Below are positions 16,235 to 41,150 of a DNA stretch of 42,165 nt, piece by piece. Origin of the DNA: a virus; the IMG/VR virus record IMGVR_UViG_3300044684_000373, positions 1 to 42,165 of that record, one strand, 5' to 3'. A program made the translations under genes and the position numbers. The notes beneath the pieces are model-generated. The model saw only the letters and a program-made list of their open reading frames with translations. It was not told the DNA's origin and did not search any database. Each line of letters starts with the position of its first letter. The first letter of the stretch is position 1.

Positions 16235-16262
16235 AAGTTACGACGGTCTTGCCGTCCGTAAA
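16235..16262 (-). promoter_or_regulatory. Candidate promoter for the membrane protein-integrase operon
   Basis: On the reverse strand TTTACG (16257-16262) and TAACTT (16235-16240) are 16 bp apart. The spacer holds an inverted repeat, GACGG-TCTTG-CCGTC (16242-16256), which could be an operator. The start codon lies about 60 bases downstream. The rest of 16177-16295 holds no gene; a minute ATG frame near 16270 closes after a few codons. Confidence 0.4.
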
Positions 16263-31986: not shown

Positions 31987-32165
31987 CCGGGCCGCCATCC
32001 CGCCACACCGTCACTTGTGGCTTCGAGCCGCACCCTGCATCGTCGGGCACCGGTTTCGTGCCCTGAATTAGGAGCTGTGGTCCCGCCTGTCGACCTCATG
32101 CCTCCGGCAACGGGACTGAGACGCCTACCGGACCGCCTAGCGCCACCCCGCAGCATAACTCCCGA
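31987..32165. other. Non-coding structured leader, possible small RNA
   Basis: No gene is supported here. Three more short hairpins can form: TGTGGC-TTCGA-GCCGCA (32016-32032), GGGCAC-CGGTTTC-GTGCCC (32045-32063) and GTCCC with GGGAC (32080-32116). The density of hairpins suggests RNA structure, but I cannot name a known RNA family. Confidence 0.35.
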
Positions 32166-32188
32166 TCGAACAGTCGTGCGAGTACCCT
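32166..32188. promoter_or_regulatory. Dispersed dyad site 4 with -10-like box, before portal
   Basis: TCGAAC-AGTC-GTGCGA (32166-32181) is followed by TACCCT (32183-32188), a possible -10 box. The portal gene starts about 95 bases further on. Confidence 0.5.
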
Positions 32189-32213: not shown

Positions 32214-32276
32214 CCCGGAAAGGGACCGTGCGGCCGCCGGAAAGGCACCCGACCCCGTTCCGGCCGCCGTAAAGGA
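32214..32276 (+). repeat. Three GNRNA mini-hairpin repeats in the portal leader
   Basis: CCC-GGAAA-GGG (32214-32224), GCC-GGAAA-GGC (32236-32246) and GCC-GTAAA-GGA (32266-32276) share a pentaloop of the form GNAAA. The outer pair changes from C-G to G-C with pairing kept in the first two. The third copy, with a broken outer pair, serves as the ribosome site for the GTG at 32284. Confidence 0.55.
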
Positions 32277-32283
32277 CACCGCC

Positions 32284-33999
32284 GTGGCGCTGCCCACCAC
32301 AGAAGACGCCCGCTACACCTGGCCACCCGGCATCTGGGACCCCGTCGCCCATGACCAGCGCCTCTGGTCAGCCTGGTTCAGCGGCAAAGCGAGCGAACTC
32401 GCATGGGCATACCTCAACCTCGGCGCCAACTCCCAGACCGGCCGCGCGTTCTTCCGCACCACCGGCGAGCGCAACGTCCGGATCCCGAAGCCCGGCCAGT
32501 ACCGCGGCGGCCTGCTCGGCTCGATCGACCGCACCTTCTGGGGCACGAGCCCGTCGGCCGGCGAGAAGCGCTCGAAGATCCACGTCCCCTTGGCGAGCGA
32601 CATCAGCAGCATGAGCGCGGACCTGCTGTTCGCCAAGCGACCGCGCTTCGACCCGCCGGACAACGGCGTCGACGACGCCAGCTCCGCGCAGGAATGGTGC
32701 GAGGAACGCTTCGACGACGACCTACACGCCAGCCTCCTCGAGGGCGCCGAGCTCTGCTCCGGCCTCGGCGGCCTGTTCCTGCGCACCGCGTGGGACACGG
32801 ACATCAGCGATAAGCCGTGGATCGACCTGGTCCACGCCGACGCCGCCGTGCCGACGTTCCGCAACGGCAAGCTCATCTCAGTGATCTTCTGGCGCGTCCT
32901 CCAGGACGACGGCGACCAGGTCCACCGCCATCTCGAAGACCACGACCTCGTCGCGAACACGATCGAGCACGCCGTGTACGTCGGCGACCAGATCTACCTC
33001 GGCCAGCGCGCAGACATCGCCGGCTACCCGGATCTCGCACCGACGTACACCGAGCTGAACACCGACGGCAAGATCATGCTGCCGGACCTGCCGAAAGACG
33101 CGAGCACCGTCACCTACGTGCCGAACATGCGCCCGAACCGCTACTGGCGGCACATCGCCCACGCCGCGGCGCTCGGCCGCTCCGACTACGCCGGCATCGA
33201 GTCGCTGATGGACGCCCTCGACGAGACATACTCGTCGTGGATGCGGGACATCCGGCTGGCCAAGTCCCGCCTCATCGTCCCGCCGAGCTACTTGGACGAC
33301 CTCGGCCCGGGCCGAGGCGCGATCGCGGACATCGACCGCGAGATCTTCACCCCGCTCAACATGCTCGCCGGCGAAGCCGACAAGGCGATGATCACCCCGT
33401 CGCAGTTCGTCATCCGTTGGCAAGAGCATCAGCAGTCGATGAACGAGACCATCAACGCCGCGCTGCGCGGAGCGGGGTACGCGCCACAGACCTTCGGCGA
33501 CGCGCCCACCACGGCGATGACAGCGACCGAGATCGAGAACCGCGAGCGTCGCACCCTGCTGACGCGGGCGAAGAAGTTGAACTACTGGCGCCCGGCGCTC
33601 GCTGACGCGCTCTATAGCCTGATGTGGATCGACAAGACGGTCTACGGGCGGCCGGTCGACCCGGTGCGGCCGGTGATCGTGTTCCCGGATGCGGTGCTCC
33701 CGTCGCTCGACGAGTTGTCGAAGACCGCCCTGGCGCTCTCCAACGCGCAGGCCGCGAGCAAGCAGACGCTGATCAAGATGCTGCACCCGGACTGGACCGA
33801 CGAGCAGGTCACCGAAGAGCTCGAACGCATCCGCGACGAGGCTGCGTTCGACATCCTCGGCCGCGCGCGGGTCATGCTCCAGGCGCCGCAGGACTCCGAG
33901 GCCACGATCGGCCAGGAGGTCGACGAGATCGCCGGCGACGTGCGCATCACTTCGGACGCGTCGACGGCGACTAACCCTGAACAGGAGATCTCCGCATGA
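32284..33999 (+). CDS. Portal protein
   Basis: A 571-residue portal of the SPP1 gp6-like type. GTG start with AAAGGA upstream. Landmarks are RSKIHVPLASDISSMSADLLF (in part; about 97-115), the wing region with GGLFLRTAWD (about 160-169), PNMRPNRYWRH (about 281-291), the long stem helices around DALDETYSSWMRDIRLAK (about 310-327), and the clip and crown part ending in an Ala/Ser/Thr-rich tail. It forms the dodecameric channel through which terminase pumps DNA. It overlaps the next gene by 4 bases. Confidence 0.9.
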   Translation: MALPTTEDARYTWPPGIWDPVAHDQRLWSAWFSGKASELAWAYLNLGANSQTGRAFFRTTGERNVRIPKPGQYRGGLLGSIDRTFWGTSPSAGEKRSKIHVPLASDISSMSADLLFAKRPRFDPPDNGVDDASSAQEWCEERFDDDLHASLLEGAELCSGLGGLFLRTAWDTDISDKPWIDLVHADAAVPTFRNGKLISVIFWRVLQDDGDQVHRHLEDHDLVANTIEHAVYVGDQIYLGQRADIAGYPDLAPTYTELNTDGKIMLPDLPKDASTVTYVPNMRPNRYWRHIAHAAALGRSDYAGIESLMDALDETYSSWMRDIRLAKSRLIVPPSYLDDLGPGRGAIADIDREIFTPLNMLAGEADKAMITPSQFVIRWQEHQQSMNETINAALRGAGYAPQTFGDAPTTAMTATEIENRERRTLLTRAKKLNYWRPALADALYSLMWIDKTVYGRPVDPVRPVIVFPDAVLPSLDELSKTALALSNAQAASKQTLIKMLHPDWTDEQVTEELERIRDEAAFDILGRARVMLQAPQDSEATIGQEVDEIAGDVRITSDASTATNPEQEISA

Positions 34000-34289
34000 G
34001 CACACCGAAGCCGAAGGGCACGGGCGGCAGCTCGAGCAAGAGCACCGGCGGGAAGGCGACACCGCGGCCGCGGCCCACGCCGATGGTGCACAACGGCCAG
34101 CCGGCCAACGGCAAGCACGTCCCCTCTGCCGCGGCCGGCCACCCGGGCCCGTTCGACTACTCCGGCGCTGTCGGCTCGAACGTCACCGGTGTGCCCGGCC
34201 CGGACCTCGAATCCGGTCAGGTGCTCTCGGCGCCGCCGTGGGAGGCCGCGTACCCGACGCCGGGACTAGAGCAGGCGCCGATGTACTAA
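33996..34289 (+). CDS. Low-complexity protein between portal and scaffold
   Basis: A 97-residue protein rich in Gly, Ser, Pro and Lys (KGTGGSSSKSTGGKATPRP; GHPGPFDYSGAVGS; PPWEAAYPTPGLEQAP), probably disordered. It is coupled to the portal stop (ATGA) and a recognisable promoter-like site follows. Function unknown; it might be a minor head protein. Confidence 0.5.
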   Translation: MSTPKPKGTGGSSSKSTGGKATPRPRPTPMVHNGQPANGKHVPSAAAGHPGPFDYSGAVGSNVTGVPGPDLESGQVLSAPPWEAAYPTPGLEQAPMY

Positions 34290-34295
34290 CGCGTA

Positions 34296-34315
34296 TCGAA
34301 CGTGTGTGCGATAAT
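34296..34315. promoter_or_regulatory. Dispersed dyad site 5 with GATAAT -10, before scaffold
   Basis: TCGAAC-GTGT-GTGCGA (34296-34311) overlaps a near-consensus -10, GATAAT (34310-34315). Position between low-complexity and scaffold genes fits a promoter for abundant scaffold and capsid transcripts. Confidence 0.6.
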
Positions 34316-34330
34316 CCGGCCGAGGTGATC

Positions 34331-34367
34331 ACCGAAAAGGTAGGTCACCGCACCACCCCGCAAAGGG
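34331..34367 (+). repeat. Two GNRNA mini-hairpin repeats in the scaffold leader
   Basis: ACC-GAAAA-GGT (34331-34341) and CCC-GCAAA-GGG (34357-34367), 26 bp apart. Outer pair A-T in one and C-G in the other, loops GAAAA and GCAAA. The second copy overlaps the ribosome site of the TTG at 34380. Confidence 0.55.
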
Positions 34368-34379
34368 AGAGAACGAACC

Positions 34380-35057
34380 TTGACCGAGCAGCCCATCGCG
34401 CCAGCAGCGCCGCCGACCGCGGCCGTGCCGGCACCAGTGCCCGCTCCGCCTGCGCAGCCAGCGCCGGCCGAACCGGACTGGAAGGCCATCGCCGAAAAGG
34501 CTCAGGCCGACGCCGAGTCGTGGAAGGGACACGCGCGCGACTGGGAGACCCGGGCACGCTCGAACAAGCAGACGTTCGACGAGCAGCTGGCCGCGCAGCG
34601 CGCCGAGATCGCTAAGGCGCTCGGTCTCGCTCCTGAGGAGCCGGATCCGGAGAAGATCGCCGCTCAGCTTCAGGCAGTGCAGGCCGAAAAGGCGTCGCTC
34701 GCCCGGCAGAACGCGGTACTCCTGGCGGCCCATACCGCAGGCGCGGACGCGGCCGCGCTGCTCGATTCGCGCTCGTTCCTGGCGTCGCTCGACAACGTCG
34801 ACCCGGCCAACCCGGCCGCAGTGCTCGACGCGGTCAAGGCTGCGGTAGCCGCGAACCCGCGCTACGGCCTCGCCGCGCCGCAGGCTGCTGCGCCGGCTCC
34901 CCCGCCGCGCCAGGCGTCGACCGCCGGATCGTTCAACGCAGCGCCCGGCACTGCACGCCAGCTCGGTGAAGCCGACATGAAACACATGACCGGAGCCGAG
35001 ATCTCCAAGGCCATGGCACAAGGCCTGTTCAGGGACTACCTGAACACGCCGAACTAG
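34380..35057 (+). CDS. Scaffolding protein
   Basis: A 225-residue protein from a rare TTG start with AAAGGGAGAGA upstream. It has a Pro/Ala-rich N-terminus (about 1-32), long helices (DWKAIAEKAQADAESWKGH; FDEQLAAQRAEIAKALG; AQLQAVQAEKASLARQ) and a C-terminal HMTGAEISKAMAQGLFRDYL typical of actinophage scaffolds. It lies directly before the major capsid gene. The role is to template prohead assembly and then leave. Confidence 0.85.
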   Translation: MTEQPIAPAAPPTAAVPAPVPAPPAQPAPAEPDWKAIAEKAQADAESWKGHARDWETRARSNKQTFDEQLAAQRAEIAKALGLAPEEPDPEKIAAQLQAVQAEKASLARQNAVLLAAHTAGADAAALLDSRSFLASLDNVDPANPAAVLDAVKAAVAANPRYGLAAPQAAAPAPPPRQASTAGSFNAAPGTARQLGEADMKHMTGAEISKAMAQGLFRDYLNTPN

Positions 35058-35095
35058 CACCACCGCACCACCAGCTTCACACCGCCGCTCGCCGC

Positions 35096-35162
35096 CCCGG
35101 AAAGGGACGACAGCGGATCGACCGGAAAGGTCAATCCCCTGTCAACCCGTGACCCGGAAGGC
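35096..35162 (+). repeat. Three GNRNA mini-hairpin repeats in the capsid leader
   Basis: CCC-GGAAA-GGG (35096-35106), ACC-GGAAA-GGT (35121-35131) and the shorter CCC-GGAA-GGC (35153-35162). The third overlaps the ribosome site of the capsid ATG. Copies are 25 and about 31 bp apart. The outer pair again covaries. Confidence 0.55.
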
Positions 35163-35170
35163 ACGGCAAC

Positions 35171-36070
35171 ATGACTGTCCTTCACTACAAGGCAGAGTTC
35201 TGGTCCAAGGTCCTGCTCGAGGCCTACCGCAAGAAGCTCGTCTTCGGCTCCCCGATGGTCATCAACCGGGACTACGAGGACGAGGTCTCCCGGTTCGGCG
35301 ATACCGTCCACATCACCTCGATCAGCGACCCCACAATCGCGACCTACACGCCCGGCGGCACGCTGAACTACCAGCAGCTCAACGACGCCGGACAGTCGTT
35401 CGTCATCGACCAGGCCAAGTCCTGGTCCGCGCAGATGAACGACGTCGACCGGCGCCAGCAGGTCGGCGACCTCCAGGGCTACTTCGAGGGCCGCGCCGCC
35501 TACCGCATCGCCGACGTGCAGGACCAGTTCATCGCGTCCCTGTACACCGGCGTCGATCCCGCGAACGTCCTCGGCTCCAGCGCGTCACCACTGACGCCGG
35601 CGCTCTACACCCCGACCACGCCGGCGGACTTCTACCTCAAGGTGATCCTGCCGCTCGGCGTGCTGCTCGACCAGCTCAACGTCCCGGAAGACGGCCGATA
35701 CCTGATCGCGCCGCCGTGGGGTGTCGCGATGGCCGCGCAGACGCAGGCCTTCGTGCAGTTCCCCGGCAACAACGGCGGCGTCGGCGAGGTCATGGGCACG
35801 CGCGCGGTCGGCGAGCTCGGCGGCTTCACCATCATGAAGTCGAACAACACCGTGCAGACCGTCGCCGGCGGCCCGGGCACCGGTGTGTGGGCGATCCAGG
35901 CCGGCCACAACAGCGCGATCACGTTCGCCGACCAGATCGCGGAGAACGAGGCGCTGCGCTCGCAGGCCGACTTCGCGGACCTGATCCGCGGCCTGAACGT
36001 GTACGGCGGCAAGCTGACGCGCCCGGAGGCGATCGCGATCGCCTACGTGCTGCGTCCGGTCGGGATCTGA
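35171..36070 (+). CDS. Major capsid protein
   Basis: A 299-residue protein after the scaffold. The opening (KAEFWSKVLLEAYRKKLVFG, then VINRDYEDEVSRFGDTVHI) and the pattern DQAKSWSAQMNDVDRRQ are typical of the P22 coat-like family of actinophage capsids within the HK97 fold. LIAPPWGVAMAA (about 177-188) and GELGGFTIMKSNN (about 214-226) fall in the peripheral domain, and LRPVGI ends the protein. It is expected to be the most abundant virion protein. Confidence 0.9.
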   Translation: MTVLHYKAEFWSKVLLEAYRKKLVFGSPMVINRDYEDEVSRFGDTVHITSISDPTIATYTPGGTLNYQQLNDAGQSFVIDQAKSWSAQMNDVDRRQQVGDLQGYFEGRAAYRIADVQDQFIASLYTGVDPANVLGSSASPLTPALYTPTTPADFYLKVILPLGVLLDQLNVPEDGRYLIAPPWGVAMAAQTQAFVQFPGNNGGVGEVMGTRAVGELGGFTIMKSNNTVQTVAGGPGTGVWAIQAGHNSAITFADQIAENEALRSQADFADLIRGLNVYGGKLTRPEAIAIAYVLRPVGI

Positions 36071-36085
36071 GGAAGGGGCGGAATC

Positions 36086-36544
36086 ATGGCGATCACGAAC
36101 GCAGCTTTCTCGGTCACCACGCCGAACGGCATCACCACGATGCCGACCGCGTACAGCATCGTCGCGGGCGACGTGTCCGCGGGCATCTCGATCCCGGCGT
36201 CGTTCTTCACCACCGCTGCCTCGTACGGGCAGTCCGGGTTCCTGCCGGAGAAGCTGTTCCTGTTCTTCAACACCACCACGGCCGGGACGAACTTCAACGC
36301 GATCATCAAGGCGACGAAGGCGACCACCGACGTGCCGAACTCGGCGCCCCCGTTCCCGCTGGCGAACCAGGGTGACCTGACGCTGAACATCAACGCGATC
36401 GGGACCTACCCGGTGTTCGGCCTGACGTCGGGCCGGTTCATGCAACCGGACGGCAGCATCCTGATCAACTTCTCGGGGACGCTCGGCGTCACGACGCTGT
36501 ACGGCTTCGTGCAGCCGTACGCGCCGCTCGGCCCCCGCGGCTAA
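36086..36544 (+). CDS. Putative capsid decoration or structural protein
   Basis: A 152-residue beta-rich protein 15 bases after the capsid stop, with GGAAGGGGCGG upstream. Alternating strands and Thr/Asn-rich loops (SAGISIPASFFTTAASYG; PEKLFLFFNTTTAG; LTLNINAIGTYPVFGL) suggest a small jelly-roll or Ig-like fold. Position directly after the capsid gene suggests a head decoration protein. No family recognised. Confidence 0.6.
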   Translation: MAITNAAFSVTTPNGITTMPTAYSIVAGDVSAGISIPASFFTTAASYGQSGFLPEKLFLFFNTTTAGTNFNAIIKATKATTDVPNSAPPFPLANQGDLTLNINAIGTYPVFGLTSGRFMQPDGSILINFSGTLGVTTLYGFVQPYAPLGPRG

Positions 36545-36568
36545 GCAAATCCTCGAAAGGACCCTGGC

Positions 36569-40636: not shown

Positions 40637-40664
40637 CCGCTAGCACGAGTGTTCGAACCGGCCC

Positions 40665-40715
40665 TACACTGATCGCAGTTCCGGCTGCGTCAGCCACCCT
40701 CCCGGAAACGGAGGG
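40665..40715 (+). promoter_or_regulatory. -10-like box and GNRA hairpin before the gp10-like gene
   Basis: TACACT (40665-40670) is a possible -10 with no good -35. GTTCGAAC (40651-40658) is a half-site of the dyad family. The hairpin CCCT-C-CCG-GAAA-CGG-AGGG (40697-40715) has a GAAA tetraloop, related to the mini-hairpins in the capsid leaders. The rest of 40637-40760 has no gene. Confidence 0.45.
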
Positions 40716-40760
40716 AACGCCGCCAAATCCGCACCGTGCCCGGAGAGGGGCGGCGAGACC

Positions 40761-41150
40761 ATGGCTGGCGCACGCGTCGTGCTGCACCCTGACTGGCGCG
40801 CCCAGCTGTCCGCCGCAGAGCACCAGCTCCTCGACGGCACTCTCGGTCCGGCGATCCTCGACGACATGCAAGCCGGCACTCCGGTCCTCACCGGCCGCCT
40901 GGTCGCGGCCGAGCGATTCGAGGTCGTCGACAACCCCGGCGCGGCGCCCGAGCTGCACGTCGGCGTCTACCCCGACGACGAGGGCCCGATCCCGTACAAG
41001 CTGGCGGTCGAGTTCGGGTTCCACGGCGAGGAGTTCGTCCGCGAATACGTGACCAGCACCGGCCACGTCATCCACGCGCACACCCGGATGGGCAACAGCC
41101 CGGAGCAGCCCTACATGCGCCCGGCGCTCTACCGGGTGAGGACGCCGTGA
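40761..41150 (+). CDS. HK97 gp10-like neck / tail completion protein
   Basis: A 129-residue protein. MQAGTPVLTGRLVAAERFEV (about 37-55) is the typical core of HK97 gp10-like proteins (xxxPvdTGxLrxs), and the end NSPEQPYMRPALYRVR matches the conserved QPfmrPAl motif. It joins the connectors to the tail terminator. Its stop overlaps the start of the VIT1-like gene by 4 bases. Confidence 0.85.
   Translation: MAGARVVLHPDWRAQLSAAEHQLLDGTLGPAILDDMQAGTPVLTGRLVAAERFEVVDNPGAAPELHVGVYPDDEGPIPYKLAVEFGFHGEEFVREYVTSTGHVIHAHTRMGNSPEQPYMRPALYRVRTP

Follow-up and report, generated by a model that had tools for sequence, protein, structure and literature searches.

Twin hairpins with GNRA-like loops at head and packaging genes: a probable, undescribed cis-acting RNA of actinobacteriophages

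The virus record IMGVR_UViG_3300044684_000373 (42,165 bases, analysed at full length and called the window here) carries small tandem hairpins in the leaders of its portal, scaffold and capsid genes. Together with related leaders in other phages, these are probably an undescribed cis-acting RNA of actinobacteriophages. The twin-hairpin leader is a strand-specific, covarying structure at fixed positions, with its last hairpin at the ribosome site. As proposed, the element would lie in the 5' leader of head or packaging genes as a tandem array of two, occasionally three, small hairpins, each capped by a GNRA-like loop (G-N-A-(A)-N), and the 3' arm of the last hairpin would usually serve as the Shine-Dalgarno (SD) sequence (GGGAG, AAAGGG). 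We give a probability of about 0.55 to the reading that the copies are a conserved element controlling ribosome access via a loop-binding factor.

A preliminary description of the window named eight hairpin copies, and all were recovered at the stated positions; their spacing is 22-32 bases. All lie on the + strand: P1 (CCC-GGAAA-GGG, 32214-32224), P2 (GCC-GGAAA-GGC, 32236-32246) and P3 (GCC-GTAAA-GGA, 32266-32276) in the portal leader; S1 (ACC-GAAAA-GGT, 34331-34341) and S2 (CCC-GCAAA-GGG, 34357-34367) in the scaffold leader; and M1 (CCC-GGAAA-GGG, 35096-35106), M2 (ACC-GGAAA-GGT, 35121-35131) and M3 (CCC-GGAA-GGC, 35153-35162) in the capsid leader. M2 caps a longer stem, GACAGcGGAUcGACC-GGAAA-GGUCaAUCCcCUGUC (35109-35143), whose outer part is also present in relatives L126, L208 and L127. 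As described, all four letters occur at the second loop position, and the outer pair is Watson-Crick in six of the eight copies (chance from base composition, 0.008). It is broken only at 32266 and 35153, the copies that double as the portal and capsid SD (AAAGGA in P3). The copy closest to the start codon is, or overlaps, the SD site in all three leaders, and in the scaffold leader the 3' arm of S2, GGGAG, is the SD. The window therefore holds the arrangement that defines the element, at least two C-GNA(A)N-G hairpins preceding a head or packaging gene with the last at the SD. The pattern CCGNAAAGG matches the window 10 times, on the + strand only, against 0.73 expected, and 0 of 100 shuffles reach 10. 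Seven matches are in the leaders (portal 3, scaffold 2, capsid 2), the copy at 35153 being a variant of this type; the other three comprise two in coding sequence inside the scaffold gene (34492 and 34684) and a singleton at 16256.

Portal and capsid searches gave a graded series of relatives in which the hairpins keep their positions and change their letters. The 98%-identical L125 (L001 is a shorter fetch of the same contig) has scaffold and capsid leaders identical to those of the window and a P1 changed on both sides to give a longer stem, GCCCC-GGAAA-GGGGC. In L126, L206, L208, L127 and L211, whose portals are 58-67% identical, each of the three leaders has hairpins at unchanged positions, mostly as NCC-G-NAA-C-GGN or NCC-GCAC-GGN. 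The place of P2 is taken by GCCGAAACGGC in all five and that of M1 by CCCGGAACGGG in L126, L206 and L208; relatives carry GCCGAAAGGGC for P3 and CCCGCAACGGGAG or CCCGAAACGGGAG for S2. L129 retains related hairpins with other loops, and the core is mostly restricted to the portal, scaffold and capsid leaders in the two relatives of 40 kb. Of 73 distinct copies, 58 have a Watson-Crick outer pair (CG 34, GC 19, AT 3, TA 2), compared with 27.8±3.8 when the arms are shuffled (largest of 5000 shuffles, 44); where the core occurs at other places in these contigs, the share is 33%. Compensatory change, as the preliminary description had proposed, thus keeps these leaders paired. Most of what an exact search of viral contigs for triple CCGNAAAGG returned was repeats in coding sequence or longer hairpins unrelated to these, and only L001 was relevant.

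AAAGG or AAGG occurs in every window copy, as would be expected if the SD sequence were reiterated, in a chance-like manner, within a GC-rich leader. However, the distal copies of the relatives mostly read AAACGG and are still paired, and they are therefore not extra SD sites. Homologous leaders that keep AAAGG without its pairing partner would, by the preliminary description, have refuted the hairpins; the opposite was seen, with pairing kept and AAAGG lost. Reiteration of AAAGG irrespective of pairing is ruled out, and chance-like reiteration in general is exceedingly improbable.

Covariation was scored on an alignment of 43 pentaloop twins, related by descent and in part taken from pattern scans. 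Picking of twins required three inner pairs per hairpin but placed no condition on the first hairpin's three outer pairs; these unselected pairs covary (CG, GC, UA, UG, GU and AU). The test gave a score of 0.419 against 0.122±0.017 for shuffled alignments, a value reached by 0 of 500 shuffles, and slid versions scored at most 0.125. A covariance model, R1, was built from the same 43 twins with the window's lineage and its relatives excluded. Its best window match was the scaffold leader (34328-34372, E 0.0031; next 0.87), enclosing S1 and S2, and it matched the scaffold leaders of L127, L211, L126 and L208 with E values of 1.5e-6 to 1.8e-3; Actinomyces phage xhp1, also matched, had been used for training. 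Neither the portal nor the capsid leader of the window appeared among R1 matches up to E 5, and both are assigned to the element by homology to the leaders of relatives, not by R1.

The loop start G-N-A, commonly G-N-A-A plus a free base, and the C-G closing pair are conserved, and the stem sequence is free. Among 153 twins, the 3' arm of the second hairpin begins GGG or GGA in 102, its third base lies mostly 5-13 nucleotides from the start codon, and the two hairpins are spaced 8-39 nucleotides apart. The two loops are identical in 70 of the 153, in a partly pattern-fetched set, against 24.6 expected. No Rfam 15 family exceeded its gathering threshold for the window and 14 related loci, the leader region giving only a chance miRNA match (E 0.5), and no published description of the element was found in a literature search of incomplete coverage that included few subscription journals.

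The twin extends well beyond the window's lineage. In Streptomyces prophages with portals ~40% identical, it lies directly upstream of the scaffold gene, for example as CGCC-GCAC-GGCG followed by TCCC-GCAC-GGGAG, and the first hairpin of L316 is GATCC-GCAC-GGATC. A pattern scan returned 47 contigs, in most of which the twin lies 5-14 bases upstream of a scaffold start, and a second one extended the set to GAAAC-loop twins in scaffold and terminase-small-subunit leaders; other scaffold families have GCAAC or GCAAU loops and longer stems. Isolated phages with the twin are Actinomyces xhp1, Thermobifida P318, Streptomyces Success, Gordonia TinyDot and Streptomyces phiSASD1. In Mycobacterium phage DotProduct (L496, NC_042336), the twin, CCCC-GAAAU-GGGG then UUCCC-GAAAU-GGGAG at positions ~40-110, precedes the terminase small subunit gene; this gene, gene 1 of the genome, is annotated as a minor tail protein but has a match to Pfam Terminase_7, the family of phage terminase small subunits, with E 4.9e-23. 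The earlier restriction to three head genes therefore applies to the window's lineage but not elsewhere, where mainly scaffold and terminase-small-subunit genes are involved. In the scaffold leader of Streptomyces phages Raleigh and Ignacio (L323, L325), a terminator-like GGGGCCCGCCAGGAGCGGGCCCC-TTT is followed by a second hairpin, GCCCGCCAGGAGCGGGC, holding AGGAG; this twin has the same layout with a different loop, and both of its hairpins are loop-matched. An association with the scaffold motif WKxxARxxExRAK was considered and dropped, as many scaffolds lacking the motif also have the hairpins.

For an unbiased count, 1,549 distinct 90-base leaders were taken from loci fetched by protein homology only, and at least two C-GNA(A)N-G hairpins, with three Watson-Crick pairs each, were required. 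Twins with the sense loop occurred in 55 leaders, compared with 2 for the antisense loop and 0-8 for six other control loops, and 54 of the 55 preceded scaffold, terminase small subunit, portal or capsid genes according to the author's reading of the downstream proteins. A looser earlier count gave 72 twins against ~4 in mononucleotide shuffles. The element is uncommon in six host genomes and shows no enrichment there, and a host origin was rejected on that basis.

This strand bias argues for RNA over DNA. Were the sites instead bound as DNA by a phage transcription regulator, the presence of CCGAAACGG in longer operator-like palindromes beside a -35-like TTGAC (L399, L401 and L414) would be accounted for, and the wobble statistics would be compatible. 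The exclusive sense orientation (55 versus 2), the 8-39-nucleotide spacing, the loop of either 4 or 5 bases and the tie to the SD nevertheless make DNA sites very unlikely. Unrelated phages (L399, L401, L414, L434, L408 and L016) contain palindromes (ATAACCGAAACGGTATTGAC or ATTACCGAAAAGGTAAT, for example) with TTGACA/TATGAT; these are probably DNA operators, a distinct thing with a look-alike core.

Antitermination or attenuation is the main rival reading. S1 and its relatives would then be a terminator or an antitermination site (nut/boxB- or ANTAR-like) at which a factor lets polymerase through. A terminator-like S1 with a T run is present in L392, L412, L419, L455, L458, L466, L380 and phages Success and P318, the targets of ANTAR proteins are likewise tandem hairpins with like loops (PMC3369931), and the window copies obey GNRNA. 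Against this, a T run follows S1 in only 10 of 153 twins, one of them marginal, and in none of the window's leaders; the tie of S2 to the SD is not needed for antitermination; and the loops of relatives are neither GNRNA nor ANTAR hexaloops. Transcription control as the main function is therefore rather unlikely. In some of the minority of phages where a T run follows the first hairpin, attenuation may operate alongside control of ribosome access.

The hairpins could also act without a factor, passively fixing the fold of the ribosome site or protecting the mRNA 5' end. GNRA-like loops are generally stable, and the window's scaffold copies would be near a likely transcript start. A TCGAAC-N4-GTGCGA palindrome (SOS/LexA-box-like) at 32166-32181 is a likely part of the portal promoter and another, with GATAAT at 34310-34315, a likely scaffold promoter (34296-34315), both on the + strand. 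These likely promoters are shortly upstream of the hairpins, which would therefore be near mRNA 5' ends. Two hairpins with like loops beyond chance, a conserved loop on a free stem and the few gene types concerned point instead to recognition, making a purely passive role unlikely. Thermodynamic folding alone is weak, with z scores of about -2 to -2.9 in the window (-2.9 for the predicted capsid leader fold) and near 0 in some relatives.

Control of translation by a loop-binding factor is likeliest because the 3' arm of the second hairpin is usually the SD, and the position of this arm together with the shared loops suggests a factor that reads the loops and acts on ribosome access. A trans-acting RNA-binding factor is the natural reading of the hairpins. 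The factor, of phage or host origin and probably a dimer, given that the like-looped hairpins are paired, would bind the loops and control ribosome access to the SD of late head genes, and the levels of scaffold, capsid, portal and terminase would be balanced as a result. Feedback by an assembly protein, the scaffold first, may be one candidate by analogy with phage P22. It is more tentatively proposed, at somewhat less than even odds, that one conserved phage or host factor reads the twins in terminase, portal, scaffold and capsid leaders across actinobacteriophages and sets head-protein proportions post-transcriptionally, as an undescribed RNA regulon of capsid assembly.

Several points weigh against control by a loop-binding factor. 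Window stems have only 3 bp, some scaffold leaders contain no recognisable twin, and no binding partner of the hairpins was identified. The minimum-energy fold of the portal leader favours a long-range pairing of P1 with ~32254-32263, where CCCGTTCCGG (+ strand) is complementary to P1, over hairpins P1-P3; this predicted alternative could be a switch or could mean that P1 is unformed. Because the sequences share descent, significance judged by shuffling is overstated, and GU and AC stem mismatches (27 versus 24) do not separate RNA from DNA.

Little is known at the RNA level of how tailed phages set the proportions of scaffold, portal, capsid and terminase. The element is small, portable, supported by covariation and present in many actinophages, including isolated ones, so that standard reporters could test the question. 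For annotation it would add a new family of cis-regulatory RNAs and, should it have a binding protein, it would provide a new RNA tag-and-binder pair for actinobacteria.

The window is of the temperate actinobacteriophage type, with 68-69% GC and recognisable integrase, repressor, terminase, portal, scaffold-like and capsid genes. On the + strand, the portal gene (32284-33999, GTG start; phrog_533, E 7.6e-96) is followed by a scaffold-like gene with a TTG start (34380-35057; phrog_9857 head scaffolding protein, E 4.6e-5), which precedes the major capsid gene (35171-36070; phrog_267, E 1.7e-50), a position that supports its scaffold assignment. Similarity to L001/L125 drops sharply at 31999-32142, between the upstream open reading frame (ORF) and the portal leader, and this segment is a mosaic exchange ending just upstream of the conserved portal leader. 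The related hairpins reported at 36550-36561 (TCC-TCGAAA-GGA) and 40697-40715 are present. The latter (CCTCC-CGGAAAC-GGAGG) belongs to a fourth similar leader (40640-40760), in which it follows a promoter-like stretch, GTTCGAACCGGCCCTACACT, resembling the scaffold promoter of L127/L211 and precedes an ORF at 40761. With at most one mismatch, TCGAAC-N4-GTKCGA has nine window sites (10541, 25696, 27828, 29683, 32166, 34296, 39040, 39254 and 40641), giving 15 strand matches against 0.77 expected, and those at the portal and scaffold promoters are conserved in most relatives. The sites could reflect host LexA control or be phage repressor operators.

Among known systems, the dual-hairpin targets of ANTAR proteins (EutV, NasR and AmiR) similarly consist of two small tandem leader hairpins with like terminal loops; they are read by a dimer and act by antitermination (PMC3369931). 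ANTAR loops are, however, hexanucleotides with A1 and G4 (PMC3369931), whereas the twins have GNA(A)N tetra- or pentaloops and place the second hairpin on the SD. With loops of 4-5 nucleotides that start with G, the twins are ruled out as ANTAR target RNA. The boxB of lambda and P22 nut sites is likewise a small hairpin with a GNRA-like pentaloop, and the preliminary description likened the copies to it. A boxB identity is not supported, as the GNRNA pentaloop is kept in the window only and broken in homologues (GNAAC, GCAC, GAAAG, GAAAU and GCAAG, the last base being free), and the twins, unlike boxB, are tandem and at ribosome sites. No evidence for an N-like protein turned up, though no systematic search for an arginine-rich N protein and boxA was made. 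GNRA-like pentaloops with the extra base at differing places are known structures, and the looped-out base contacts protein in boxB complexes (PMC12550061). The SAS/ESAS repeats of cluster K mycobacteriophages, of which the function is not established, are also short, one-orientation repeats at actinophage start codons (PMC3203893). Unlike the hairpin leaders, SAS (GGGATAGGAGCCC) is spread over many genes, and in the window it has 7 matches with 3 mismatches against 13.7 expected, which is no more than chance.

We know of no RNA site of twin-hairpin form in the self-regulation of the phage P22 scaffolding protein. This protein is reportedly self-regulated, its synthesis being set after transcription, and in this respect it resembles the control of scaffold synthesis proposed here.

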